A stretch of 28,185 nucleotides of DNA from IMG/VR virus record IMGVR_UViG_3300032282_005895, positions 1 to 28,185 of that record; one strand, given 5' to 3'. Of the stretch, positions 1,497 through 27,100 are shown piece after piece. Under the pieces are notes generated by a model. It did no database searches. It saw only the letters and a program-made list of their open reading frames with translations, and was not told where the DNA came from. This DNA is from a virus. The position numbers and the translations under genes were made by a program. Within the stretch, counting starts at the first letter, position 1; each line of letters starts with the position of its first letter.

Positions 1497-2156
1497 TCAG
1501 ACGATAGCTGACCACTTTCCGATGGGACAGGAGGCTGAGGCTAACTGGGTTTTGGTCTTCATAAAGCAGCCACATTCCTTGCAGCGACTTGAGGCGGCAT
1601 CAAATTTATCGCACCCCTCACACGTATTCATACGGGAAAATCCTTCCTCAGCCGAGACGAGTACCGGAAGTCCCTTGGCGGCATTTTTACCCATTTTCCA
1701 CATATCCTTGGCAGCATTTCGCGCCATTTGAAAGGTAGACGGAAACTGACTGACATCCTCATGTTTGATATAGTCTTCCGTCTTGAGAATCTGTTCCTGC
1801 ATTTTGACATCAAATTTTGCCTCCAAATATGTCAACCCATCCATCATTTTGAAAGCGGCGTCAATATCCCCCATAAGGTCTAGGGTGGCATTATGGGCAA
1901 TGCGATAGAAAAGAGGGGTTTGATTCTTGGGGGCAAAGTAATACAAGACATCCGTGGCAATACGGGGGAAGGGCATTTGCTCCTCACTATAGCACATATT
2001 AAATAAAGCAATATCCTTGCCCATAGATGCTAGTTGAGTCTGGATATTATCATGGAAGGCGTTAGGCTCACCGCAATCGGTCGTGACCGCAACCATGATA
2101 AGGGATGAGGTATTATTGATATAGTTGGCGATATCAGGATTTACGTTGGGTTGCAT
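1497..2156 (-). CDS. Protein with C-terminal zinc-ribbon-like cysteine cluster (219 aa), function unknown
   Basis: This 219-residue protein has two parts. The N-terminal about 165 residues (starting MQPNVNPDIANYINNTSSLI) contain a hydrophobic strand LIMVAVTTDCG and a stretch MPFPRIATDVLYYFAPKNQT that I do not recognise. The C-terminus has C179xxC182, C192xxC195xC197 and C210, in the context RCKECGCFMKTKTQLASASC followed by PIGKW. This arrangement is a small zinc-binding domain found at the C-terminus of several phage proteins from glycosyltransferase or fibre neighbourhoods. The start codon overlaps the stop of the HtrL-type gene by one base (TAATG), so it is the last gene of the glycosyltransferase cassette. 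It might be a partner or scaffold for that cassette, but no catalytic motif is visible. Confidence 0.75.
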   Translation of the reverse strand: MQPNVNPDIANYINNTSSLIMVAVTTDCGEPNAFHDNIQTQLASMGKDIALFNMCYSEEQMPFPRIATDVLYYFAPKNQTPLFYRIAHNATLDLMGDIDAAFKMMDGLTYLEAKFDVKMQEQILKTEDYIKHEDVSQFPSTFQMARNAAKDMWKMGKNAAKGLPVLVSAEEGFSRMNTCEGCDKFDAASSRCKECGCFMKTKTQLASASCPIGKWSAIV

Positions 2157-3838
2157 TAGTTTTCTCTCCGCTCTTCAGATGGGTAAAAAATATTGCGCTC
2201 ATGATTAATTGGCGAAGCAAGCAATATAGCTGGACGTATATATTTATCTCTAGTTTTTTGGAAGACATAGGACATCCATGTTTGCTCAAATGGATGCGAC
2301 CACGTGGTTTCTAAAAAGACCTTTCGATTTCCTTCTCGACCCATAATCATGGGCCAATTGCTATAGTAAATTTCCCCCGTAATATATGGAACATTTTGAA
2401 GGATGTTAATCGTAGAAAATTCAGTACGAGGTGAATTGGGGTCTGTTCCCTGAACAGGCAACTTGTCATAGGTCGGCCATACGTCGGTTCGTACATTTTG
2501 TGGCACGTTATACCAACTCCACTGCTGACTATTATCCCCATAAAATTCAGAGAAGGATAACTTGAGAAAATCAAAATTTTCCTTCAGCATAATCTTATGG
2601 ACAATCTCATATAGATTTGGGATATACTTCATAAACCCCGATTTACAAAACGGCGGTTGTGTCTTAGGAAGATTTAAATTCATATCATCTTCAAAAAAGA
2701 AATAATAATCAGCATCAGAACTATCAAAATGTTCCGCTGCAAAATACCGCCCTCCACAGACTCCTAAATTATTTTGATGAATTTCTTCAAACCCATACTG
2801 CCCACAGAGCCTATCATATTCATCAAAGGTGTCGGCATTGGTTGAATTGTTAATCAAAATTTTTCTTGTTTTCTTTGCAAAATCTGTATTGGCAAAAGTG
2901 TCGCAAAGTGATTGAAATTGTTCTGGAGCATTGAAACCCAAGACATATAGATTTGTTTTTACTTGAGAATACATCTTTTGTGTCTGTGGTCGTGATGCTT
3001 TTAGTTCTATGGGTTTCTGCATCGCTTCAAAGAATGGCCATACTAGTCCATTTCCTTCCACAGTAAACCGTTCAATGATATTCGGATAGGTATACGCCGC
3101 AATTGTAAAGAGACATTCATCTGCTCCGGTATATCCTTGCTTAATCGTCGAGGACAAGATTTGATAATATAAATCATTGTATTGATGAATCAGTTCTTTG
3201 GGTCCTCCCCAGAATCCTCCACGAGAAATTTGAATTTGTGTGGTGTTTTCTGGAAGTCCACAAAACCGATACATGGCTGATTTTTCAAATCCATGAATTT
3301 CCGTGTTGGCCTCGTAGGGATAGGTAATATGGACAATCTTATTGAATACCGATGGAACATCCTCAAAGATTTTTCCTGATGAAAAATACCCTTTATTAAC
3401 CGTTCCTGTCAACCCCCCATCGACCCAATAAAAATAGTCGCTTTGGAATGGGTTGAATAACGCCGAATCGTTCACCATGAACATCTTTGACATCATCATG
3501 GGATTGTATAGTGGCAACCCTCCTTGGGGAGAATCAGGAAGCCATCCCGCCTGTTGCTTCCATTCCGCAGAGGTACGAATTTCCTCATGTTCCGTATAGA
3601 ATGGAAACCAAGTGGTAAATTCTTTTAGTTCTTTATAATAAACTCTGGTATTGTGGGTCGAGCGTATTTTCCATACCTCATCTTCAAGTTCACGGGGTAT
3701 CCAAATACACATGGGAATATCGGATTCTAGAAAATCAAAAAATCTCTTTTTGTATTCCTCAAAATCACGTTGTGCCCATCCCTTTAATTCTCCTCGACCT
3801 AAATCCCACAGGCCCGTCACAATAGTCACTGAACTCAT
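2156..3838 (-). CDS. Two-domain glycosyltransferase: HtrL/YibB-like plus GT-A-like
   Basis: The protein has 560 residues. The N-terminal half (1 to about 270) matches the HtrL/YibB family: VTGLWDLGRG at the start, YNPMMMSKMF (111-120), FYWVDGG (136-142), SRGGFWGGPKELI (205-217) and GADECLFTIAAY (238-249). The Asp of WVDGG and the Asp-Glu at 240-241 are candidate metal or substrate ligands. The C-terminal half (about 293-545) looks like a separate GT-A (GT2-like) domain: NLYVLGFNAPEQF, KTRKILINNSTN, NNLGVCGGRYFAAEHF, then FFFEDDMN (380-387) as a DxD-type motif. HtrL/YibB genes are known from LPS-core gene clusters, and the substrate here is unknown. It overlaps the previous gene by 4 bases (ATGA) and the next by 1 (TAATG), so it is tightly coupled within the cassette. 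Confidence is high for HtrL similarity and moderate for the second GT domain. Confidence 0.8.
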   Translation of the reverse strand: MSSVTIVTGLWDLGRGELKGWAQRDFEEYKKRFFDFLESDIPMCIWIPRELEDEVWKIRSTHNTRVYYKELKEFTTWFPFYTEHEEIRTSAEWKQQAGWLPDSPQGGLPLYNPMMMSKMFMVNDSALFNPFQSDYFYWVDGGLTGTVNKGYFSSGKIFEDVPSVFNKIVHITYPYEANTEIHGFEKSAMYRFCGLPENTTQIQISRGGFWGGPKELIHQYNDLYYQILSSTIKQGYTGADECLFTIAAYTYPNIIERFTVEGNGLVWPFFEAMQKPIELKASRPQTQKMYSQVKTNLYVLGFNAPEQFQSLCDTFANTDFAKKTRKILINNSTNADTFDEYDRLCGQYGFEEIHQNNLGVCGGRYFAAEHFDSSDADYYFFFEDDMNLNLPKTQPPFCKSGFMKYIPNLYEIVHKIMLKENFDFLKLSFSEFYGDNSQQWSWYNVPQNVRTDVWPTYDKLPVQGTDPNSPRTEFSTINILQNVPYITGEIYYSNWPMIMGREGNRKVFLETTWSHPFEQTWMSYVFQKTRDKYIRPAILLASPINHERNIFYPSEERREN

Positions 3839-4827
3839 ATAATTCCTCTTATATTAATAAAATGTCCATCGGATGCACTTACTACATATTCATTTTCAGG
3901 GTCAATATTTGTTGAGAAAAAAATACGAAGACTATTAGGAATATCTGGTTTAGGTTTTTCTATTTGAAGCACATAATGATTGCATTTTACTTTGATATTT
4001 GTTGTATCTTGTCCTATATATTTTTTTATAACATCCGTAATATCAATGATATTAGGTTCCGTGAATGATAATTGTTGTCCTTCATCGCGTTGTTCAGCAA
4101 AATAGCCATACTCAGCTTTATGAATCGTAAATTCTACGTGGGGCTGTGACCCGTCATAAAGGTACTGTGGAATAACAGTATAGTATCCGTCATGACTAAA
4201 GTGAAAAAACTCATAAAACTTGATATTTTGTATATCGCTATTTGCTTCGTGAAGCCATGCCTCACAAAACCAGCGGTCTTGTGGAGAGAAAGGAACATTC
4301 TTTTGGATATGCTCAGAAGTAGTCCACCAAAAATTTCCCCACCACCATCTGTGAACATTCGTAACGCCAACCGTATCGAACCCCTCTTCCAATTTACTCA
4401 CACAGTTTTTCCAATTTCGAAGCAAGAAATAAGTTAGCATTTCTGTCCAACAACGGATTCCCTGTATCTTCAGGGGATGGTATTCTTTGGTCTCGAAGTT
4501 TTTATATTTGTTAAATACACCCTTGACATGAAAGTAAAAGAGATAATACTTCTCTTCAGTATTTTTACCTAGGCGGTCAATTTTTGCAATGGCAGGAGAT
4601 TCAAAATCATTTTTGGTTTGATATTCCAATTTCCATTTTGGATAGGTTACTAGCACTTCCTCAACCACATGACGCTGATTATTTAAATCTGTAACCATCA
4701 GATATAATTCATCTGCCGCCTCATATAATCCCGACGAAGAGGTTTCTTGAAGGAAATATTCTAATCGTGTTTTCCACTCATTGACGGCGAAACAATGGCA
4801 TACGACTGCAATTTTACGCGCGGTCAT
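3835..4827 (-). CDS. Glycosyltransferase-like protein with C-terminal beta domain
   Basis: The protein has 330 residues. The N-terminal about 215 residues begin ARKIAVVCHCFAVNEW and contain YYLFYFHVKGV (about 94-104), a W..ML.YFLLRNW segment (127-139), GFDTVGV (149-155), a WWWGNFWWTTSEHI block (161-174) and DRWFCEAWL (184-192). The 'Y-x-H-x-K-G-V ... G-N-F-W-W' combination is characteristic of a poorly described glycosyltransferase-like family found in phages, giant viruses and bacterial surface-glycan loci. The C-terminal about 100 residues are all-beta, with IHKAEYGYF, NIIDITDVIKKYI, NIKVKCNHYVL and NSLRIFFS. This fits a DnaJC11/DUF3395-like module that often trails phage glycosyltransferases, though I am less sure of that. 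It overlaps both neighbours by 4 bases (ATGA), so it is translationally coupled in the cassette. Donor and acceptor are unknown. Confidence 0.65.
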   Translation of the reverse strand: MTARKIAVVCHCFAVNEWKTRLEYFLQETSSSGLYEAADELYLMVTDLNNQRHVVEEVLVTYPKWKLEYQTKNDFESPAIAKIDRLGKNTEEKYYLFYFHVKGVFNKYKNFETKEYHPLKIQGIRCWTEMLTYFLLRNWKNCVSKLEEGFDTVGVTNVHRWWWGNFWWTTSEHIQKNVPFSPQDRWFCEAWLHEANSDIQNIKFYEFFHFSHDGYYTVIPQYLYDGSQPHVEFTIHKAEYGYFAEQRDEGQQLSFTEPNIIDITDVIKKYIGQDTTNIKVKCNHYVLQIEKPKPDIPNSLRIFFSTNIDPENEYVVSASDGHFINIRGII

Positions 4828-5546
4828 CGTCTAATAAAGCTAAAGATATCATCATTGCCATTGAAAATTTTATCATGAACCTTATCGAGCAACCGATATT
4901 CATTCAAACCATAGGCAAAACCATGATATACGAAATTTCCATCAAAAGGTTGCATCCAATTCAATGAATGGAAATCAATGAGTTTGATTTTTTCCTTTAC
5001 TTCTTTGTGTTGTTCATATAACAAGGACAAGCAGGTTTGGTCATGCCATAGACCATTTTTATAATATCCAACCAATTTTTTATTCTCGTCTGCAATGGAT
5101 AAATGGATACAATCTTCCCCTTTAAACTGATTAGCACTTTTCCACCACTGCTGTAAAAATGCCTTCACCCATGGCGTGTTCTTAAGGAGAAATACTCCAG
5201 CATTCATGCGGCTATGAACACTATAATCATGAGTAAACACCATATCATATACGTCATCTATGAACTGTTCAATCGGAATTGAAAAGTCTACTACAGCGGC
5301 ATCAATATCTAAAAACAGAATATACTCAGGATTTGATTGCTCCAAAATTTCTAAAATAAACTTTGGCTTATACCACGTGAAGGCTCTTCCTTCTACGCCA
5401 GATATAATCTTTTCGGTATTCTTTTCCACAACATAGGTATACCCAGATTCTTCGCAATATTTGCGATTTATCTCTTCAGTATATTTTCCATACTTGACGT
5501 TTTCGGTGTAAAATTGTGCGAGAACAATTTTTGATTTGTCAATCAT
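4824..5546 (-). CDS. GT34-like (GMA12/MNN10-type) glycosyltransferase
   Basis: The protein has 240 residues. After KIVLAQFYTENVKYG it shows KYCEESGYTYVV, a WYKPKFILEIL segment (58-68) and the metal-binding D80-I-D82 in YILFLDIDAAV. RMNAGVFLLKN (113-123) supplies the usual N-A-G motif, HDQ occurs at 168-170, and a late histidine lies in FVYHGFAYG (about 205-213). This order is that of retaining GT-A enzymes of the galactosyltransferase GMA12/MNN10 (GT34) and related nucleotide-diphospho-sugar transferase families. It is a soluble protein with no membrane segment, so it probably works in the host cytoplasm on a sugar already attached to a protein or glycan. It is coupled to both neighbours by 4-base ATGA overlaps. 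Sugar and acceptor cannot be read from sequence. Confidence 0.8.
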   Translation of the reverse strand: MIDKSKIVLAQFYTENVKYGKYTEEINRKYCEESGYTYVVEKNTEKIISGVEGRAFTWYKPKFILEILEQSNPEYILFLDIDAAVVDFSIPIEQFIDDVYDMVFTHDYSVHSRMNAGVFLLKNTPWVKAFLQQWWKSANQFKGEDCIHLSIADENKKLVGYYKNGLWHDQTCLSLLYEQHKEVKEKIKLIDFHSLNWMQPFDGNFVYHGFAYGLNEYRLLDKVHDKIFNGNDDIFSFIRR

Positions 5547-6790
5547 AGTGCACCCTCTAATTTAGTCATCCATCCCTTACTTCGTGAGAATGGCCATACC
5601 ACCCACTTTGTTGGCTTTTCTGAAATATTGAATTGTCTCCAAATTTTATAGTAGCCATCTGGGTCTCTTCCCATCATCGTAATTTCATTGATATCCGCAT
5701 CCTTTCTGAAGATGGTGTTTCCATTCTTATCTTCAAATGCAACAACCCAGAATTCATAATCAGTTTCTGGAACAGATTGCTTATAAACATCAACACAATG
5801 TTTAAAAATGGATAAGAACGAGTTCTCATAATCTTCAATGGAAAGCACGGGATTTGGAGCATTATGATTATCCACCGTGTATTGTTGCACCGCGCGTTTC
5901 TTAAATGAAATTCCTGCATATTGTTCGTATTCATTTAAAGAACGTATCTTACCAAAATCATATCGACCAAAAGGAATATCTTTCGTTTCTCCGTCCATCT
6001 CAAACAACTTTCTATTGCGAGCATGGCAGGATACATTCTTTTTAATCCATTCTTTATCGTCATCCCACTGCTTTGTCCTGCCCTTTCTGGTGTATTCGTG
6101 CCACGCAATCACTTGATGGGGATGAAACAAATCATATCCATGGGTAAAGGCACGGACTGCAATGGAGATTTCTTCCCCGTGGAAATAATACTCAGGGTCA
6201 TGGGGAACTTCCTTTACAAACTGTCCTAGGGTAAAGCAAAAATGTGCCGAATAAAATCGTGCAGGAATTGGGGCAGTTAATTCTTTAAAATTATCAATCG
6301 ATGCTGGCAAGAAAAATATTGCCCCCTCTGGAATGAATCGGTCAAAATTCATTTTCCATGGAATCTGCACACGGCTCTCTGGGTCTTTGTCGGGGTCAAA
6401 GGACGGCAGATATGAGGTGAGTAATGGCTTAGAGTGTCCTTTAGCCTGAAGGTCCGCAATCATCGCAATACACTTCGTGTCCCACTCAGGCACAAACCGA
6501 TGGTGGGAATCTAATTGGAGTGTATAAGTTTCGTTATTGTAAAGACGTTGGATAGAATTTCTTGCCCAACACGCCCCCTTCGATTCTTCATAGGGGATAT
6601 CAATAATCTTAAATCGCGGGTCTGCCCGAAATTCATCGAGCGTATCCCATGCGTCACTGGCACTATGTTGCCATGCAATACCAAACACCAGATTTTCTGG
6701 ATGAGCCGCTTGTGCCAAGCAGTCTTTAATCGTTGGCACAAGCTGAGGGTCACGATAGGCAGCAATTTGAATAAAAATGGTGTTGCTCAT
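5543..6790 (-). CDS. GT60-type glycosyltransferase (polypeptide GlcNAc-transferase family)
   Basis: The protein has 415 residues from the ATG at 6790. This start is preferred over an upstream GTG at 6796 because AAGGTGAG lies just before it and covers that GTG. Family motifs are IFIQIAAYRDPQLVPTI near the N-terminus, GACWARN (about 72-78), LQLDSHHRFVPEWD (about 92-105, with the D-S-H metal site), FCFTLGQFVKEVP, YYFHGEEISIAVRAFTHGYD and a later WHEYTRKGR. These match the GlcNAc (GT60) family, whose characterised members add GlcNAc to hydroxyproline of Skp1 or to Thr of mucin-type proteins. The C-terminal about 95 residues (from about 320) hold a separate domain with YEFWVVAFEDKNGNTIFRKD, which I have seen in other phage members. 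It heads the cassette, about 70 bases downstream of a TATAAATA motif. A virion-protein acceptor is the attractive inference. Confidence 0.85.
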   Translation of the reverse strand: MSNTIFIQIAAYRDPQLVPTIKDCLAQAAHPENLVFGIAWQHSASDAWDTLDEFRADPRFKIIDIPYEESKGACWARNSIQRLYNNETYTLQLDSHHRFVPEWDTKCIAMIADLQAKGHSKPLLTSYLPSFDPDKDPESRVQIPWKMNFDRFIPEGAIFFLPASIDNFKELTAPIPARFYSAHFCFTLGQFVKEVPHDPEYYFHGEEISIAVRAFTHGYDLFHPHQVIAWHEYTRKGRTKQWDDDKEWIKKNVSCHARNRKLFEMDGETKDIPFGRYDFGKIRSLNEYEQYAGISFKKRAVQQYTVDNHNAPNPVLSIEDYENSFLSIFKHCVDVYKQSVPETDYEFWVVAFEDKNGNTIFRKDADINEITMMGRDPDGYYKIWRQFNISEKPTKWVVWPFSRSKGWMTKLEGAL

Positions 6791-6791
6791 A

Positions 6792-6799
6792 CTCACCTT
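6792..6799 (-). promoter_or_regulatory. Ribosome-binding site deciding the GT60 start
   Basis: The minus strand reads AAGGTGAG immediately followed by TATG. The site overlaps the in-frame GTG at 6796, so translation is expected from the ATG at 6790, two codons later. Confidence 0.65.
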
Positions 6800-13181: not shown

Positions 13182-16100
13182 TTAAGCGCAATATCCACTA
13201 CCACCGCATCCAACATAATCTGCACAAACTTCAACATAATAGTATCCACAGGAACCATCAGCATATTTATCGTATAACGTTGTTAGTACTCCACCTTCAC
13301 CACAGACTTGTCCAATATAGGTTCCGTAAGGGTCACAGGGCACGGATGATGCCGTTAGAGTTGGAGTCATCGTTTGGGTTTGTGTTGGAGTAGGCGTCAA
13401 TACAGTACAATCTGCAATTGCAATTTCAGTACCGCTACTGAATTGTACCCAGTTATCGTTACCACTTACATTATAGAATCCATCAGCATATGTTGAACAG
13501 TTATTGTTGATAAAGAAGTATCCTGTCATTTGATAGATAGCAACATCTCCAGTTTCATAGGCACCACAGGCGGCTTCATAGCTTCCGTAAGGTCCCGTGA
13601 CATAATATTGCAAAATACACACTGGTGTAGGCGTTGGGGTCAACGTTGGTGTTGAAGTAGCCGTCAAGGTTGGTGTTGCCGTCAACGTTGGTGTATTGGT
13701 TGCGGTTAATGTAGGAGTTGCCGTTAATGTAGGGGTACTGGTAGCCGTCAAGGTTGGTGTTGCCGTCAACGTTGGTGTATTGGTTGCGGTTAATGTCTGA
13801 GTCGCCGTTAATGTTGGGGTATTGGTAGCCGTCAAGGTTGGTGTTGCCGTCAATGTTGCCGTTGCAGTAGCCGTTAAGGTTGGCGTCAGTGTTGGGGTAG
13901 CCGTCAACGTTGGGGTATTGGTTGCGGTTAATGTCTGAGTCGCCGTATGAGTTGGTGTTGGAGTTGCGGTTGGAGCCGCATAGGTACAGCAACTTGTTGG
14001 ACTTAAGCTTGTACTGATTCCTGAACATGTACCAGAGCCACATTGTGCAATGTAATTACCGGTAATTGCGGTTGTAGTTACAACAGTCGATGCCAAGGCA
14101 CACACATAGAATGTACCTGTCCCATAGGTAGATACCACGTTAGTAATGCTATTATAACCACTATTGATATCATACCATGTTATAACACCATCCTCCGGAT
14201 AATCTGAGTAAATGGTGACCTGATAGCAATCACCTGGAGTAGCGGTATGAGTCGCCGTCAAGGTTGGTGTAGCCGTCAAGGTCGGCGTATTGGTTGCCGT
14301 TAACGTTGGTGTTAATGTAGGGGTACTGGTAGCCGTCAAGGTTGGTGTAGCTGTCAATGTTGCCGTTGCAGTAGCCGTCAAGGTTGGTGTAGCCGTCAAG
14401 GTCGGCGTATTGGTTGCCGTTAACGTTGGTGTTAATGTAGGGGTACTGGTAGCTGTCAAGGTTGGTGTTGCCGTCAATGTTGCCGTTGCAGTAGCCGTTA
14501 AGGTTGGCGTCAGTGTTGGGGTAGCCGTAGGTACTGGAGAACTAGTGGTTGGTGTTGGCGGTGTTGATGTCGGTGTTGGCGGTGTTGATGTTGGTGTTGG
14601 TGTTAAAACTGGAATGCACGAAGCGGCTGAAGTGCAATTAGCACTGCAATCTATACATTCAAAGATATCAACATCAGCAGCAGGAGTTTCAATTGGTGCC
14701 ACAACTGCACAAACCTGTATAGTTTCACCAGTAGCTAAATAAGTACTTTGTGCTCCAGTATTTGGGTCTGTCCAAGTTATCAACCCTGAAGTACCTCCAC
14801 CTGTATTATGTAATGTATAGCACGTTCCAGTATTTAATACACTAGTGGTAGCGGTTGGGGTTGGAGTTGGTGATAGTATATCAGTACAATCTCCTCCATC
14901 GGCAAGGCTACCTGATGTAAATTCTATCCAGTATGTAGTACTATTTACCTTGTAAAATCCTTCTGCATATGTTGAACAGTTATCCGTGGTAAAGTAATAA
15001 TCGTTCATTGCATAGATAGCAACATCTCCAGTTTCAAATCCATTACATGCTTCTACTGCTGAAGGATAAGACCCTGATGTATTGAAGGCAAACAGACAGA
15101 CAGGTGTTGATGTTGGTGTTGGTGCTGGTGTAGTTGATGTTGGTGTTGGTGCTGGTGTAGTTGATGTTGGTGTTGGCGGTGTTGATGTTGGTGTTGGAAC
15201 TGGTGTACAGCCAGCGGCTGATGTACAATTAACACTGCAATCCACACATTCAGATATATCAACATCTGCTGCTGGATACTCGATAGGCAACGCAACGGCG
15301 CAGACCTGAATTGTTTCATCAGTACTCAGTGTGGTTGATTGTGCTCCAGTATTTGGGTCTGTCCAAGTTATCAACCCTGAAGTACCTCCACCTGTATTAT
15401 GTAATGTATAGCACGTTCCGGTGTTACTCATGGGATTAGTAGCGGTCGGTGTTGCAGTTGGTGTGGGACTATTACAATCGCCAGTAGCTACTTGTGTTCC
15501 ACTACTAAATTCTACCCAATTACTATTTCCAACCACATTATAGAATCCATTCGCATATGTTGAACAGTTATCCGTGGTAAAGTAATAATCGTTCATTGCA
15601 TAGATAGCAACATCTCCAGTTTCAAATGCATTACATGCATCAAGAGAAGATTCATATGGACCTGTTACATTATATTGGTAAATGCAGACAGGTGTTGATG
15701 TTGGTGTTGGTGCTGGTGTAGTTGATGTCGGTGTTGGCGGTGTTGATGTCGGTGTTGGCGGTGTTAATGTCGGTGTTTGTGTTGGCGTATGAGTTGCTGT
15801 TAACGTTGGCGTCAACGTTGGCGTATGAGTTGCTGTTAACGTTGGCGTCAACGTTGGCGTATGAGTTGCTGTTAATGTCGGTGTTAATGTTGGCGTATGA
15901 GTTGCGGTTAATGTCGGTGTTAATGTTGGCGTATTAGTAGGTGTTACCGTTGGTGTTGGGGTTGGAGAAGGTATAACATACTCACTAAACACTTGCATTC
16001 CCACTGGATGTGCACTATTACGATATGCGTCATTTTCTAATAATCTATATCCCAATTCATCAGCCCAATTTTTCACAGTTAATGTGTGATTATTACCTGT

Positions 16101-17633
16101 GCCTCCTACCGTCAAATCAATGATAGATATTCCTGCTAATGCATGGTCAGAAGTATCCGCTAATCTAATAGTTGTTGAAGAAAATCCAGAACTACTAATA
16201 AAATATGTTTTATTGTTATCTAGTCCCCCAATACTCACGCCACCTCCGTTATTATAAACAACAGGAGTAGCTCTAGTACAAGTAATTAATATGGATGCAG
16301 TATTTTGTAATTTTATTTGTAAGTCAGCAAACCATCCATATCCAGGACAAAGAATATTGTCAGGACATAAAGGAGAAGCGGTTGATATGGTTACTCCATC
16401 TTCTTCATAGTGTGGATACGCTCCATCAATGAAAGGCCACACTACTATTTGGGTTGCTGTTGCAGGAGCAACAAAATCATAACTAAGATAATTCCAACCT
16501 GAAGGGAGATATGGAGTAACAATTCTCGTTGAGTTTCCAATCCATCCCATTCCTGCGGTAAGACCTTGTACTATAAATCCTTGAGGATAACTAGGATTAT
16601 ATACATTATTAATATGGACCCATCCACTAATTCGATATGTGTTTCCAGCAACAACAGGAATAGTTACTAGTGAATTGTTTAATCGAATTTGTGAAGTTCG
16701 TGTTGCAATTTTTGCTGCAACAACAGGGAGTGTTTTTGGAAAAGGAGCAGTAACATCAGTGCCTATTATTAAATCACTTGTAAGTTTTGTTTGTTTTAAA
16801 TATTGCCATCCTGTTCCATCTTGTGTATTTCCTCCTGTCCAATTTGGGTCAGGATTTAAATTTGGAGTAAATACAATATATGTACCTATCCCTCCTTTTC
16901 CAGTTCCATATCCAGAAATATATGTTCCATTAGGAATTCCTGTTCCTGTAATTTTTTGTCCTATATATAATGTTCCAGAACTAACATTGGTAACGGTAAG
17001 AGTATTTCCATTAATAAATCCAGTTACACTGGCAGTAATTGATGCGGCAAATGTGTTTACGGTATTAATCGTATTTGTAGTAGTATTTACATCACTGGCT
17101 TTAAATGTAGAAATTTTTCCAGTAGAAAATTGTTCAATAGAATAGGAAAATGGTTGAAAAATAAAATTATCTTGTAATTTATTTTTATCGGACAAGAATC
17201 CCACCGTATCTTTCCATTCTTGAGCAGCAATATCCCATGAACTAGCAGATGCTTTCAAAGTATAATTATAGGGATAACGAAGTGTAATATCCGTGTCATA
17301 CATCATACGGAAAAATAATTCTGCTGCTTTCTCCGACCCCTTCGTTTCATAATATTCACTGATAAATTTGATTAATCGACGTTCTTGTACTAATACGGAG
17401 GATGGAATATCATGAGCATATTCTTTTCTCCGCTGTTCAACGAATAAATCCAGTGTCAAATCAATATCAGACCACGTATCCGCATTTAAGAGGATATTAT
17501 TGGCTTCATGATTTTCATCTAAGAAAGTGTAATACGCTTTCAGAAATTCTACGAATGTCGGAAATGACGAACGTATATAATCCGGAAGTTGTCCTGCAAT
17601 CAGATGTTGGAGTTTATTCTTGAGGTCAATCAT
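13182..17633 (-). CDS. Giant baseplate-associated fibre-like protein with mucin-like Thr-Pro blocks and Cys-rich modules
   Basis: The protein has 1483 residues. The N-terminal domain (1 to about 140), with [20 protein letters not shown] and [16 protein letters not shown] (98-113), is conserved in structural proteins next to gp6 in marine T4-like phages and should anchor it to the baseplate. A phage beta module with [17 protein letters not shown] (about 225-245) follows. A jelly-roll-like region (about 315-440; [21 protein letters not shown]) resembles CBM4/9 carbohydrate-binding folds. From about 554 on, Thr-Pro blocks alternate with Cys modules. Three A modules have 4 Cys each (about 650-720, 846-917, 1339-1410). 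Three B modules have 6 Cys each (about 735-812, 931-1010, 1132-1220). A 6-Cys end module contains [10 protein letters not shown] (1431-1483). The start shares one base with the gp6 stop. It is probably an extended, surface-exposed adhesin. Confidence 0.8.
13618..13976. repeat. Thr-Pro repeat block 4 (C-terminal)
   Basis: This codes for about residues 1220-1339 of the giant protein. The units are [14 protein letters not shown]-like, with Thr near every second position. At DNA level a unit of 84 bases (28 codons) recurs: the stretch starting agccgtcaag at 13659 reappears at 13743 with few changes. Confidence 0.9.
14236..14610. repeat. Thr-Pro repeat block 3 with 120-base tandem unit
   Basis: This codes for about residues 1009-1133. 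Positions 14281-14400 and 14401-14520 form a tandem pair with an exact 120-base period (both begin gtcggcgtat). Their first 60 bases differ at one position and the copies drift toward the end, so the duplication looks recent. Confidence 0.9.
14610..15690. repeat. Duplicated A-B cysteine-module unit, period about 590 bases
   Basis: Two copies of a unit coding for one A module and one B module lie in tandem. The stretch from 14971 (gttgaacagt) is repeated without visible change over about 70 bases at 15559. The stretch from 14751 (tgctccagta) is repeated over nearly 80 bases at 15342. Spacing is 588 and 591 bases; the 3-base difference shows that an in-frame codon was gained or lost in between. 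Confidence 0.9.
15095..15210. repeat. Thr-Pro repeat block 2 (short)
   Basis: This codes for about residues 812-846, built from [19 protein letters not shown]-type units. It links B module 1 to A module 2 and is richer in Pro and Ser than the longer blocks. Confidence 0.85.
15690..15975. repeat. Thr-Pro repeat block 1 with 36-base tandem unit
   Basis: This codes for about residues 554-649. The decamer gttggcgtat recurs at 15781, 15817, 15853, 15889 and 15925, an exact 36-base period encoding the 12-residue unit [12 protein letters not shown]. Adjacent copies are almost identical, including at synonymous positions. Confidence 0.95.
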
Positions 17634-19923: not shown

Positions 19924-22770
19924 TTAGTAAGTGAGATTTGAATTTGGAAGGAGATTTACAAGGGACGCTGAGTAGTTGACATCATTTTTGAAGGTATAGT
20001 ATTCCAACCGTGGTTTTCCACCACTTCCCGTCGCAAGGTTCAATCCCTGTTGTTGCCATTGCATGTGAATCCATGGCTTATAGCTATTGACCCCCTTGAT
20101 ATTACCGACACGATATTCAAGAAGAAGTTTGTCAAACTGGACATTCTTCTTCAGGGATACCGCAATATCATAATACTCAGTAAAGGTCTTATTGAAGCAG
20201 AAATCCACCGCCAACCCCTGTTCATGGAAGGAAATACCGGATGCCGATTTAAATGCCCCCGTCATCTGGCCAGGTGTTCTAAACGTCGAGGAAATAATCA
20301 CATTATTCTTGCCCAGTAAATCAAAAACAGGCTCAATCACATTGACCGCTAACTGGGTCAGATTACATACGATATCTTGAATACTGAGGCCATGTTGGGC
20401 CTGTAGATTTTCTGTTCCCTTAAGATTACCAAGAGTGATATTCTTGCTGAGACGGTAGGCAGGAGAGAAATTGCTTTGGCCGTAAATAACAGAACACGAT
20501 GCTACCTTGGCTGGCAACGCAGTCGGTTTTTTGCTCGTGTCGGTCTGTCCTTCCGTGAGCGGCTTCTCCAAGTCTTCTTGGGTAACCAAGCCCTCTGCAA
20601 GACCCTTCGCTTTGAGCATTTTGATTTCATCCTTATTCGCATCGGCATTTTCTGAGAGGGTTGATAATGCACTCGCCCAATTATCGACTCGTTGCTCAAG
20701 AGTTAACGGAACTAGTTTTGGTTCTGTTGGGGTATACTTATTAACAGGAGTTCCTGCGGTTCCCTGTAATGCCTCAAAGGGTTGTGCATAGAGTGTTGCC
20801 GTTGAACCACCGCTAGGCATTAATTCCAATATGACACCATTGATAACCACTGAACCACCGCCCGATAATAATGAGGCACTGCTTTCCATTGAGGTCAATG
20901 AGGCGGCAGTTCTTCCGGAAAGAGTCATAGTGCTGTCCGAATGCACATCTACCATATGTCCTTCCGCATACAAATGTTGGGCGCTCTTGAGATTGATATT
21001 TCCTCCACTAGTCACGTTAAAGTGACCTGCGACATTAAAGTCTACGTCATTGTGGATATCTGCTCTTAGTGAGCCGTGAACTTCTAAATTCACATTATTT
21101 TTTACCAGAATATTGCAGTTTCCTTCAATCGTGATGTTTGCCTTCCCGCCAATGTAGATATATCCATCGCGGTCCCAGATTTCATAGCCATCACCGACAA
21201 TTTTTCGTACATGGGTGCCATTCGCATCTACTTCAGTAAAAGTTCCGCTGCGATGATACCAATGCATACGCTCATTTTGTGGAGTATCATCATATTCCAC
21301 GACATGCCCTGATTCCGTCTCTTGAACGTGATTGTAGGGATATTTGCCGTTATATGGGGATTTGGGCTGGCTCCATGTATTGGGGGCCGCATTTCGCGCA
21401 ATAGGCACATCAGTGACCCGTTTGGAATCCTTCTTTCCAACGATAGTATCTTGAATCTTTTCTCCCGTCGCTAATGGATTGGTACTGGGTCTTCCCATAT
21501 TATTTTCACGGGGATAGATATTCTTCGGGTCATTAAATCCCACACTACTTGGAACTTTTCGTAAAGAATTTTCTTTTTGGTCACGAATATCAGTTTTGGG
21601 AGAAGTACGAATAGGATTTGTTGGTGCTGGAATTTTTGTGGCGGCGGCATCAATCGCACTCGCACTAATCCCAGATGTTCCATTTGGAAGTTCTTCTTTA
21701 AGAGGAACCTTAATACCACTTTCAATACCTTTCACCACCCGTGCATGAATATCTCGTGCACTTCTGCCGATAATCGTAGAAAATTCTGCGCCAATCCCAA
21801 ATAACTGGGACAAATTCTTTCCAAAAATACGTTGGGCAATTAAATGTCCCGCAATCTCAGCCTTACTATCAATCAAATTATTGATAAAGTATTGATAGGC
21901 GGTTTTCCACTGGGACAATAATGCGCGATAGGCATACAGTCGCTGTATTTTTTGCAACGTAAGAAAATTCTTTGGACCGAGTTGTTTTTCGAGCCAATGT
22001 TCCGCATGCGAGAGGACATACCAGTGCAACGCCGAGCGGAGGGTAGTTGGGATTTTATCATAGACTTCAATACTAATAAGTCCCTGTTTAACCGCCTCTA
22101 AGGCATAGTCCGCAAAATCACCCTCTGCAATCGCTGACCACGTATCAAGCGCCGATTGACTGACGGCACCAATACTAATAAGGTCTTTAACGGTCGTACC
22201 ATACACACCCATTTTTCCATCATCGGAGACCGTATTAAGGGCATGGTCAATTCCAAGGGAGGTACGTTCTTTCTGAAGTTCGTCTTCCAGTAAGGTAAGT
22301 GATAACTCAATATCATTCGGAGTCAAATCCCCGATATATCCATCTTGACTTTTCGGAGGCGCAATATTTCGAGTATTTGGAATGGGCGCTAGGGCATAAT
22401 TCCCCTGAGCATCCACATAAACAGACCCGCGCGAATTGGTGAGAAGGGTATGTTCATATAATACGATATCTTCATAATTTTGATTGGAAGCGGCGACTTG
22501 CGCTTCCGTAGGACTAATAAAATGCTTGTCTTTCTGTAAATTGGCAATGGTTTCTGCAAGGTCTGGAATAACTTGCTTTTTTTGTTGACATATCGTAATC
22601 TCATTTACAATCGTAGTGAGAATATCTGGGGTGAGATTGAAGGTCGTTAAATTTTGTGAAATCAAAGACGAAAGCGTTGCCGAACAATTTAACAAGTCCG
22701 CATTGGTATATGCGGATGTATTGCTCAGACGCTTGCGTACTTCATCCAATAATAAACGAGACGTTGCCAT
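19924..22770 (-). CDS. Spike/needle protein: gp5 beta-helix part with C-terminal M15-type peptidase
   Basis: The protein has 948 residues. The first about 400 residues are mostly helical and unfamiliar (for example ALHWYVLSHAEHWLEKQLGP). Near residue 475 the gp5 C-terminal signature appears: GKYPYNHVQETESGHVVEYD and DTPQNERMHWYHRSGTFTEV, very close to T4 gp5. Regular short beta repeats (about 510-655: NITIEGNCNILVKNNVNLEV and so on) form the triple-stranded needle. The C-terminus is a zinc D,D-peptidase-like domain: IISSTFRTPGQ (about 825), SFHEQGLAVDF (about 846-856, the SxHxxGxAxD site) and KPWIHMQW (about 898-905). This peptidase should cut peptidoglycan cross-links or stems as the needle enters the cell, replacing the T4 gp5 lysozyme domain, which is absent. 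AAGGATAACT before the ATG includes the end of the gp5 OB gene 2 bases away. Confidence 0.85.
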   Translation of the reverse strand: MATSRLLLDEVRKRLSNTSAYTNADLLNCSATLSSLISQNLTTFNLTPDILTTIVNEITICQQKKQVIPDLAETIANLQKDKHFISPTEAQVAASNQNYEDIVLYEHTLLTNSRGSVYVDAQGNYALAPIPNTRNIAPPKSQDGYIGDLTPNDIELSLTLLEDELQKERTSLGIDHALNTVSDDGKMGVYGTTVKDLISIGAVSQSALDTWSAIAEGDFADYALEAVKQGLISIEVYDKIPTTLRSALHWYVLSHAEHWLEKQLGPKNFLTLQKIQRLYAYRALLSQWKTAYQYFINNLIDSKAEIAGHLIAQRIFGKNLSQLFGIGAEFSTIIGRSARDIHARVVKGIESGIKVPLKEELPNGTSGISASAIDAAATKIPAPTNPIRTSPKTDIRDQKENSLRKVPSSVGFNDPKNIYPRENNMGRPSTNPLATGEKIQDTIVGKKDSKRVTDVPIARNAAPNTWSQPKSPYNGKYPYNHVQETESGHVVEYDDTPQNERMHWYHRSGTFTEVDANGTHVRKIVGDGYEIWDRDGYIYIGGKANITIEGNCNILVKNNVNLEVHGSLRADIHNDVDFNVAGHFNVTSGGNINLKSAQHLYAEGHMVDVHSDSTMTLSGRTAASLTSMESSASLLSGGGSVVINGVILELMPSGGSTATLYAQPFEALQGTAGTPVNKYTPTEPKLVPLTLEQRVDNWASALSTLSENADANKDEIKMLKAKGLAEGLVTQEDLEKPLTEGQTDTSKKPTALPAKVASCSVIYGQSNFSPAYRLSKNITLGNLKGTENLQAQHGLSIQDIVCNLTQLAVNVIEPVFDLLGKNNVIISSTFRTPGQMTGAFKSASGISFHEQGLAVDFCFNKTFTEYYDIAVSLKKNVQFDKLLLEYRVGNIKGVNSYKPWIHMQWQQQGLNLATGSGGKPRLEYYTFKNDVNYSASLVNLLPNSNLTY

Positions 22771-22772
22771 AG

Positions 22773-23255
22773 TTATCCTTGGGTCGTGACAGAATTTTCT
22801 AATTCTTGATTTTGTTGCTCAGTGACGGTATTGATATAATTTGTCGTAGGAATTGCGTTAGCAGACAATCCAAAATCTTTTAAGATTAATGGTTTGAGGA
22901 ATTGTGTGGCGAGCATCGTTGCAAAATCCCCTATAAGATTTACTGGTTCTTCCATGCCAGGGAACGTACCTAGCATCACAGGAATTTGACATTCTTCTCC
23001 ATCAAGAAAAAATCCAAGTACCCACGTACCTTCAACGGCTCCAACCGGAGCATTACCAATTCCAGAGACAGAAGCGGATGTCATCGGCATCAACGGCATC
23101 GCCCACGGTAAATCTTCTGTTGGAAGCACGGTTTTATCAGATATGTGATATCCTGCCACCCGAACCCGACATCTTCCTAGTGCTTGAGGGTCTTGACGGT
23201 CTTCAACAACACCTAACCACCAATGAAATCCACCATTGTCGTATAAATTTCTCAT
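22773..23255 (-). CDS. 5: Stand-alone gp5 OB-fold hub protein
   Basis: The protein has 160 residues. It shows WWLGVVEDRQDPQALGRCRV and then RVAGYH (12-36), LPTEDLPWAMPLMPMTSASV with SGIG (44-67) and VGAVEGTWVLGFFLDGEECQ with IPVMLGTFPG (71-100). This aligns closely with the N-terminal OB domain of T4 gp5, which sits on the gp27 trimer in the baseplate hub. T4 gp5 continues into lysozyme and needle; here the protein stops after a Gln/Asn/Glu-rich tail. The needle is encoded by the next gene, 2 bases away. An AGGA ribosome-binding site overlaps the gp27 stop. The gene split resembles the proteolytic split of T4 gp5 but at gene level. The two reading frames show no sign of a simple frameshift. 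Confidence 0.92.
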   Translation of the reverse strand: MRNLYDNGGFHWWLGVVEDRQDPQALGRCRVRVAGYHISDKTVLPTEDLPWAMPLMPMTSASVSGIGNAPVGAVEGTWVLGFFLDGEECQIPVMLGTFPGMEEPVNLIGDFATMLATQFLKPLILKDFGLSANAIPTTNYINTVTEQQNQELENSVTTQG

Positions 23256-23258
23256 AAA

Positions 23259-24650
23259 TTATCCTAGTGATGTGGCAAAAGATTCTTTGATTAATTCCAT
23301 TCGCATGTAGTACTTATTATCTAAAATAAGATGGCGAATCGCTGTAACAAGATATGGCCCTGAGAGATGTGGGTCAATAAGCTGTGTTATATCTTTCACA
23401 TTATTTTTTTCTGCGATATTCGGAAAATATAATTGTACCACTTCTCCTGCTTCTGTCCCACAAAATCCAGGAACTGTAATTTCTACCCGAATGTTATTTA
23501 AATCATACATGATACTATTTCGTTGTAAAACCCAATCTTCATACTTGTTTTCTTCCGTTATATCAAATAACCCCTTATGCTTCGGTTTGAATACCGGATA
23601 AGAATAGACATTTCGAATTTGATTCGTACTAAAAGTAGGTCTTTCTCCATCTAAATGCTTAAAGCTTGAGTAATTGCTTGCATAGTCAAAAATATAGAAA
23701 TCATAATTTCTTGTTGCAATATCCATAACGTGCATATTGGATGAGTAATGACCCATATCTTGAGCATTTAATACATCTGTATTTTTTGTAATTTTGAGTT
23801 CTTCTACCTTTTTAAATTGCTCTCCTAGCGTGTTTTTACCTTTTTCAATTTCTTTAATCGCCGCATTATCTAATCCATAAAAGTACATCTTTCGTTCTTT
23901 TACATTGCTTTGCGCCGTAAAGATAGACTCAATGCTTCCAAAATAAAAAGATTGTGTAGATTCCCAAAAAAGTACCGAAGGAGAATTGTTGGATGCATCA
24001 ATAGAACGATTTGCTAACCAATTTAACACTTTAAATGGGTTCCATAAAGGAACAACACATGTAACTTTTGTTTTGAATGGAGTAAGCGAGGCGGGTCCTG
24101 TATTCAATACGCTCAAATTTTTTCGAGGTATATCAGTTCTCCAGCTAGGTGTCGTGAGACCATCGTTGCTGCTAATTCCTTTCGGAAATGGATATTTCTT
24201 ATTCCATATTCTTGGCATCTGTAAATAATCATTAAAAATACTTTTAGCAATCGCATCGGTGGTGCCTGAATATTTCTTGGAAATAAAGGTAATGTTGTCA
24301 ATCATACCTTCTAAAGAAATAAATTTCAACGTATAGATTTGTTGTCGGTCAGTTGAACTTGGTGCACGGTCTTGAATGGCATAAATGTAAAATGACCGAT
24401 GAATAATTGAATTTGGAAATCCAGGATTATTGACCCGAATCGTGATGATTTCTCTTCCAATAATCGGTATTTGTGCCACCAAATTACTTCCATCGACGAA
24501 TATTGCACTTCCCGATAGACAGTTGGAAAACATGTCTTCGTAAATAGAAAGTTCTGTAATATACGTCTTGAGGTCAAACGTTTGCCCTGATTCCGTGATT
24601 AATGTAAATTCTTCTACATTAATCGCACCCGCTTTAATGATTTCTGCCAT
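23259..24650 (-). CDS. 27: Baseplate hub protein gp27-like
   Basis: The protein has 463 residues (T4 gp27 has 391). The N-terminal half shows VEEFTLITESGQTFDLKTYI with TELSIYEDMFSNCLSGSAIF and VDGSNLVAQIPIIGREIITI, then FYIYAIQDRAP and IYTLKFISLEGM. This pattern belongs to the gp27/gpD hub family, whose trimer forms a pseudo-hexameric ring that continues the tail tube and holds gp5. The C-terminal part contains FCGTEAGEVVQLYFPNI and LSGPYLVTAIRHLI, the last beta domain of hub proteins. It lies between gp53 and the gp5 OB gene with 1- and 3-base gaps, as expected for proteins needed in a 1:1 hub complex. Confidence 0.88.
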   Translation of the reverse strand: MAEIIKAGAINVEEFTLITESGQTFDLKTYITELSIYEDMFSNCLSGSAIFVDGSNLVAQIPIIGREIITIRVNNPGFPNSIIHRSFYIYAIQDRAPSSTDRQQIYTLKFISLEGMIDNITFISKKYSGTTDAIAKSIFNDYLQMPRIWNKKYPFPKGISSNDGLTTPSWRTDIPRKNLSVLNTGPASLTPFKTKVTCVVPLWNPFKVLNWLANRSIDASNNSPSVLFWESTQSFYFGSIESIFTAQSNVKERKMYFYGLDNAAIKEIEKGKNTLGEQFKKVEELKITKNTDVLNAQDMGHYSSNMHVMDIATRNYDFYIFDYASNYSSFKHLDGERPTFSTNQIRNVYSYPVFKPKHKGLFDITEENKYEDWVLQRNSIMYDLNNIRVEITVPGFCGTEAGEVVQLYFPNIAEKNNVKDITQLIDPHLSGPYLVTAIRHLILDNKYYMRMELIKESFATSLG

Positions 24651-26625: not shown

Positions 26626-26633
26626 TATTTATA
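26626..26633 (-). promoter_or_regulatory. T4-type late promoter for the gp48-gp53-hub operon
   Basis: An exact TATAAATA on the minus strand, with the predicted transcript start about 28 bases before the ATG at 26591 and an AAGGA ribosome-binding site in the leader. The box overlaps the first base of the divergent gp4 start codon. Confidence 0.8.
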
Positions 26634-27100
26634 TGACCTATACTAAAGATACCTACCGAGGTTTTTTCCAGCCTCAAAATCCCCACAAATACCTCGGCAA
26701 CCTATCACAAATTGTGTATCGGTCCAGCTACGAGGTACGTTTTATGAAGTGGTGTGATTTAAACGAAAATGTCTTACAGTGGGGGAGCGAAGAGGTAATC
26801 ATCCCCTATATTAGCCCTGCTGACAATAAAACCCATCGCTATTTTGTCGATTTTTTCATCAAAATCAAGACAAAGGATGGGTCTATTAAAAAGTATTTAG
26901 TAGAGGTGAAACCCTATCGGTTTACCCAAGAGCCTGTCACGCCCAAGCGCAAAACAAAAAACTTTATTAATGAGGTGGTGCAGTGGGCGGTGAATAACGC
27001 TAAGTGGAACTCTGCACGGAAGGTAGCATCCACTATGGGATGGGAATTCATGCTTATCACAGAGAAGGATTTGGGTCTCTTACAGACACAGCATAAATAG
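26633..27100 (+). CDS. 4: Head completion protein gp4 (TnsA-like nuclease fold)
   Basis: The protein has 155 residues (T4 gp4 has about 150). It shows TYRGFFQPQNPHKYLGNLSQ, IVYRSSYEVRFMKWCDLNEN, LQWGSEEVIIPY, HRYFVDFFIK and KKYLVEVKP. Candidate catalytic residues of a PD-(D/E)XK nuclease are E34, D73 and E91-V-K93. The family is known both as gp4 head completion protein and as a TnsA-N-like endonuclease. In T4 it acts after DNA packaging, before tail joining. It is divergently transcribed from the gp48 operon. No ribosome-binding site is visible before the ATG, yet the family alignment begins right at this methionine. Confidence 0.92.
   Translation: MTYTKDTYRGFFQPQNPHKYLGNLSQIVYRSSYEVRFMKWCDLNENVLQWGSEEVIIPYISPADNKTHRYFVDFFIKIKTKDGSIKKYLVEVKPYRFTQEPVTPKRKTKNFINEVVQWAVNNAKWNSARKVASTMGWEFMLITEKDLGLLQTQHK
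27092..27099 (+). promoter_or_regulatory. Possible late promoter in front of the gp2-like gene (one mismatch)
   Basis: CATAAATA overlaps the gp4 stop codon and differs from the late consensus only at the first base. It precedes an 82-base gap in which I see no other signal. Confidence 0.4.

Follow-up and report, generated by a model that had tools for sequence, protein, structure and literature searches.

Two adjacent genes in the window, the whole 28,185-base IMG/VR virus record analysed here, probably together make up the gp5 of a T4-like myophage, with hub and needle on separate chains, peptidases carried at the needle tip and a diverged lysozyme module in the N-terminal part of the needle chain. 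The genes lie within a T4-like run of baseplate genes on the minus strand, in the order gp54-like tube cap, gp53, a protein in the gp27 position, OB protein, needle protein, gp25 and gp6, after which come more wedge and fibre-type proteins. A first-pass annotation made from the sequence had described the OB domain as its own gene of 160 residues and the needle as a gene of 948 residues. Both open reading frames were confirmed and gp5 is genuinely split (Table 1).

Table 1. Features of the split gp5 locus and its gp27-position neighbour, in window coordinates
Feature	Position	Strand	Evidence
Protein of 463 aa in gp27 (hub) position	23259..24650	-	PHROG 350 'tail protein', E 1.1e-71; adjoins OB gene
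Stand-alone gp5 OB-domain protein, 160 aa	22773..23255	-	Gp5_OB, E 4.9e-20; PHROG 430, E 2.5e-41
Gene junction: AAGGA 22776-22780, TAA stop 22773-22775, 2-nt gap 22771-22772, ATG 22768-22770	22771..22780	-	Sequence, six-frame reading
Needle protein, 948 aa	19924..22770	-	Full-length relatives L009, L095, L101, L176, L178
Residues 1-134, helix-rich N-terminal extension	22369..22770	-	Weak AF2 model with helices
Residues about 135-327, probable diverged tail-lysozyme (PHROG 27932, transglycosylase-like) module	21790..22368	-	hhalign
Residues 411-421, GFNDPKNIYPR motif just before needle, candidate docking peptide	21508..21540	-	Conservation
Residues 464-656, gp5 needle platform and triple-stranded beta-helix	20803..21381	-	PHROG 430, PDB, VxGxxxxx-like repeats
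Residues 657-765, low-similarity linker from needle to peptidase	20476..20802	-	Gap in relatives
Residues 767-930, M15-type zinc peptidase domain	19981..20472	-	Ligands, AF2, fold match

An alignment query of viral contigs (L numbers) brought out relatives of the whole long protein, where a single-sequence scan had given none. They comprise L009 (the same contig as L089), which is 51% identical in its best segment, the near-identical L090-L094, L095, L101/L176/L177 and L178. The short protein has the N-terminal OB domain of a T4-type gp5, though on a separate gene; the domain spans residues 1-105 (22941-23255) and is followed by a 55-residue tail, and with the tail included the protein is 67% identical to the OB protein of L009. 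PHROG 430, the family that it matches, is labelled 'baseplate hub subunit and tail lysozyme'. A PDB sequence search with the gp27-position protein returned no match. The long protein contains the triple-stranded beta-helix needle of a T4-type gp5: residues 453-624 match PHROG 430 at E 3.4e-49, and in the PDB T4 gp5 is matched over both OB and needle, at about 1e-55 to 1e-59, by a profile of this protein and four relatives. Between needle core and peptidase, relatives have a gap of 110-337 residues. The needle chains of L178 (5995-9615) and L095 (482-4108) extend about 180 residues past the peptidase, and this part of L178 has no Pfam match.

The zinc peptidase motif set that the first-pass annotation had placed after the needle is present as S847-x-H849-x-x-G852-x-A854-x-D856 and W900-I-H902, with H849, D856 and H902 forming the M15 ligand pattern (His-x6-Asp plus a distal His). 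In a 60-sequence alignment of relatives, H849, G852, D856, W900 and H902 are invariant, and S847, L884, E885, Y886 and an FR arginine are nearly so. Residues 773-909 match PHROG 894, 'endolysin', and 43 of the 60 relatives match PF08291 (Peptidase_M15_3) at E <= 0.01. The AF2 model of the domain (mean pLDDT 89.4) has an M15 fold, and among solved structures it best matches the Streptomyces albus Zn DD-peptidase 1lbu, with Z 10.4 and rmsd 3.2 Å over 127 residues, well ahead of Hedgehog (Z 6.5) and phage L-Ala-D-Glu peptidases (Z about 5). Foldseek against the PDB alone found no significant match to this model; VIA-align and BFVD gave matches. The M15A carboxypeptidase 1lbu shares fold and zinc ligand pattern with the window domain but is a free secreted enzyme, and the two are 16% identical. 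Because the LLLEY segment lies over the YYES segment in a profile alignment with Sonic hedgehog, E885 is a candidate general base.

Motif conservation and the predicted fold suggest that the C-terminal zinc peptidase is probably a cell-wall cutter. A domain of this kind might instead be a binding or structural M15/Hedgehog-like fold that keeps its zinc and may recognise peptidoglycan peptides without cutting them, as its Hedgehog likeness (Z about 6, with a weak sequence match at E 0.004) and the failure of the window sequence itself to reach any Pfam M15 model might suggest. Hedgehog itself is not known to use its zinc site as a peptidase in vivo. We nevertheless regard a non-cutting domain as unlikely, given that 60 diverse sequences all keep the three zinc ligands, with E885 and an arginine nearly invariant among them, that the top fold match is a true Zn DD-peptidase and that an unrelated peptidase-type enzyme (CHAP) occupies the same place in L112.

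Where this peptidase sits was examined among 80 viral loci chosen by their similarity to needle-M15 proteins, a selection that biases the frequencies found among them. Of these loci, 69 have M15 after the needle with the OB gene also seen, on a single chain in 53 and on split chains in 16. In L112 (6001-7941) the needle is followed by CHAP in place of M15, which makes the tip enzyme exchangeable. Two cultured phages, Pseudomonas phage Milchi and Vibrio phage 207E48.1, have the same M15 family at the spike tip, to which the window domain aligns directly (E 1e-17 and 8e-15); they differ in that the needle chain ends without M15 and the peptidase follows PAAR on another protein, the needle's cap. 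In T4 the gp5 needle is capped by a PAAR protein, gp5.4 (PMC4576200). Since the same peptidase is fused either to the needle end or to the needle's PAAR cap, the best reading of these domain orders is that it lies near the needle tip, in keeping with the earlier proposal of an enzyme at or near the piercing tip. 'Near the tip' is the safe wording because the linker of about 110 residues leaves freedom, and the peptidase could fold back along the needle.

Each of eight large contigs has one copy of the M15 family, always in the needle gene, and about half of them also have a free PAAR gene; as Cr30 also shows, a peptidase on the needle does not preclude a PAAR cap. The two closest large contigs, both possibly fragments, yielded no PAAR gene. 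That the domain is always joined to needle or PAAR, with no free gene in the eight large contigs, makes it improbable that the peptidase is freed from the needle by processing and acts as a late lysis endolysin or a maturation protease instead of at entry. What speaks for such release is the name 'endolysin' given to the domain by PHROG 894 and several records, a linker long enough to be cut and the precedent of T4 gp5, which is itself processed. A peptidase that stays on the needle, near its tip, is the reading that we prefer.

The lysozyme had been thought missing from this gp5, and about 400 N-terminal residues of the needle protein had been called unfamiliar. No lysozyme model from Pfam or PHROGs matched between OB and needle, and for a T4-type lysozyme the first of these statements stands. 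The N-terminal 400 residues on their own had no match in Pfam, PHROGs or phage tblastn; with residues 1-357, tblastn reached a best E of 0.7 in phages and found no match in genome contigs, and an AF2 model of residues 1-409 from six sequences (pLDDT 45, pTM 0.28) was too weak for a fold search. A profile of the N-terminal regions of six relatives, by contrast, aligned to the PHROG 27932 module in hhalign with a probability of 95%, E 1.7e-8 and a score of 62.2, against 20.7 for the best of 100 column shuffles, 15.2 for the reversed profile and 16-18 for two unrelated profiles. The match begins at a GxIGxLT segment and ends near residue 327. About half of the supposedly unfamiliar region is thus taken up by a diverged module from another tail-lysozyme family.

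Although profile similarity to the PHROG 27932-type module is clear, its catalytic residues appear not to be retained. The glutamate of the ES motif, invariant in 11 module sequences, aligns with T170, where the alignment is gapped and the assignment of the glutamate less certain, and in place of the GKYQ glutamine, which 11 family members share without exception, all six N-terminal sequences have G191. By this comparison residues of about 135-327 are probably an inactive copy of the tail-lysozyme module. There is little reason to expect an active lysozyme or transglycosylase here, which would leave a hub with two working enzymes and nothing lost: homology to the module and an invariant E168, two positions from the expected catalytic glutamate, would favour activity, but the aligned residue in the window is a threonine and the glutamine has become glycine throughout. 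We also considered as a rule that this N terminus replaces the lysozyme slot, and rejected it: L178 has both the N terminus and a VanY enzyme on its OB chain.

The OB and needle genes are in different reading frames, and the needle gene has an AAGGA upstream of its ATG. Split gp5 is also found in three related contig groups, with overlapping or adjacent starts: L009/L094 (OB/needle coordinates in L009, 4519-5004/5001-7961), L101/L176/L177 (in L101, 2160-2651/2635-5781) and L178 (4843-5991/5995-9615). The OB protein is separate wherever the upstream gene is complete, with 161 aa in L009/L094, 163 aa in L101/L176/L177 and 382 aa in L178, where a VanY-type peptidase has been added; L095 is cut upstream, and the end of the same VanY gene is visible. 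The single translated chain of a T4-type gp5 is therefore replaced by two reading frames in the window and likewise in relatives. Two nearly touching genes in different frames could reflect an assembly frameshift, and an error at 22770-22773 had been named at the outset as what would undo the split, but such an error is excluded by several independent contigs with the same split, whose long proteins are 40-50% identical and have their own start sites.

The earlier view that a needle lacking its covalent OB anchor is unusual does not hold. T4 gp5 is likewise cut, between Ser351 and Ala352 at the border of lysozyme and needle, and keeps its needle (PMC3004832); the lack of a covalent link between needle and OB is thus the normal state. 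Among OB-less needle chains, 22 of 29 carry a GFxDPxxxYP motif about 50 residues ahead of the needle. It is absent from all 18 OB chains with a needle-chain partner and present in the one other OB-only protein, that of L102. T4 has a similar segment after its OB domain, by a weak alignment. On this pattern of conservation the GFxDPxxxYPR segment is a candidate non-covalent dock. The N terminus of the needle chain may, as first proposed, replace the anchor.

The arrangement is not the one-off that it had seemed, since needle-M15 fusions are common and the split occurs in relatives with at least two break points. Published phages with the fusion are pf16, Cr30 and Melnitz. We found no description of a needle with a C-terminal M15 domain or of a split gp5 in the open-access literature, and the Melnitz paper is silent on both. 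The presence of this layout in many uncharacterised phages argues for a variant of a known machine and not a new one. Between OB and needle, relatives carry a T4-type lysozyme (L012), GH19 (BUCT-ZZ01, L065, L076), a VgrG3-like muramidase (L036), Phage_lysozyme2 (Cr30), VanY (Melnitz, L178) or a PHROG 27932 transglycosylase-like module (L037, L048, L078 and others), and the slot is empty in pf16, L011 and L014. Given so varied or empty a slot, loss of the T4 lysozyme is common. Simple replacement of the lysozyme by the peptidase was rejected as an account, with BUCT-ZZ01, Cr30 and many contigs carrying both. OB chains with a related post-OB region occur in L036, L041, L046, L051, L053, L054 and L059; in L036 this region is a C-terminal muramidase like that of T6SS VgrG3 (PF21277, E 4.3e-54), which links phage hubs and T6SS spikes. 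Evolved VgrG proteins with a C-terminal effector, such as VgrG3, also carry a peptidoglycan enzyme on a spike protein, in a secretion system that kills competitors and does not serve phage entry.

Generalising from domain order, we read the family as a two-slot device, with an exchangeable enzyme, in most cases one that cuts glycans, behind OB and a peptidase past the needle; in the window the first slot would be lost, or nearly lost, and the second kept. More tentatively, and with the odds rather against it, the base enzyme of this two-slot carrier may have become a non-catalytic clamp by which the separate needle is kept on the OB/gp27 hub. Because the N-terminal 400 residues include the diverged module copy, the gene most likely broke between OB and module, and the simplest history would be fission at this point in an ancestor with the order OB, module, needle and M15. 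In Melnitz and L036-type phages the break comes after the enzyme, close to the site of T4 gp5 proteolysis, whereas in the window type it comes right after OB; fission would thus have occurred at least twice, at different points.

The window shares with T4 gp5 the OB domain, the needle platform and beta-helix, the place in the tail gene order and two mature chains. It differs in having two genes, with the break right after OB and not after lysozyme, in being without a T4-type lysozyme and in the M15 peptidase appended to the needle. A split gp5 whose second chain bears needle and the same M15 also occurs in Methylophilales phage Melnitz (MZ577098, genes 154/155), but there the first chain combines OB with a VanY-type peptidase, and in the second the needle starts after only about 77 residues. 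The same M15 domain comes after the needle in gp208 of Pseudomonas phage pf16 and gp5 of Caulobacter phage Cr30, with OB on the same chain as the needle; pf16 has no enzyme between the two, and Cr30 has Phage_lysozyme2 there and an adjoining PAAR gene. A gp5-like tail lysozyme was reported in the pf16 paper, and the RefSeq product name of gp208 (L001:4683-6215) is tail-associated lysozyme; the domains of this protein are OB, needle and M15, with no lysozyme among them. By its domain content the name is probably misleading and inherited.

Elsewhere in the window, three glycosyltransferase-like genes (HtrL_YibB, Glyco_transf_34 and a PF11397 GlcNAc transferase, E 1.5e-74) lie downstream of tail genes (2156-6796 and 13182-17633, minus strand). 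One of those tail genes encodes a protein of 1483 aa with long, mucin-like Thr/Pro repeat tracts, and it is possible from its composition that this protein is O-glycosylated. A head-closure protein (PHROG 218) at 26633-27100 on the plus strand also matches a TnsA-like endonuclease N-terminal model (E 5.8e-20).

We propose that the OB protein, as in T4, would form a trimeric collar under the hub. The long protein, a member of the gp5 needle family, would trimerise through its beta-helix to form the needle, and each chain ends in a zinc peptidase predicted to be tethered about 110 residues past it. Hub and needle would be joined without a covalent bond, like mature T4 gp5* and gp5C, probably through the needle platform and the GFxDPxxxYPR segment conserved on the needle chain of split hubs. 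Within the N-terminal 400 residues of the needle chain would lie the diverged and probably inactive copy of the lysozyme module found between OB and needle in relatives. On sheath contraction the needle would pass through the outer membrane and bring the three peptidases into the periplasm ahead of any other enzyme, and there they may cut peptide bonds of peptidoglycan and let the tube pass.

Many phage proteins that bear the annotation 'baseplate hub subunit and tail lysozyme' may hide a tip peptidase, with no lysozyme or an unrelated one, and pf16 is a clear case. The split pair offers a natural, pre-separated system for how a needle stays on its hub when no covalent link joins the two. If there is indeed a peptidase at the tip, contractile phages could attack peptidoglycan from both the point and the base of the needle, with two chemistries applied in order.
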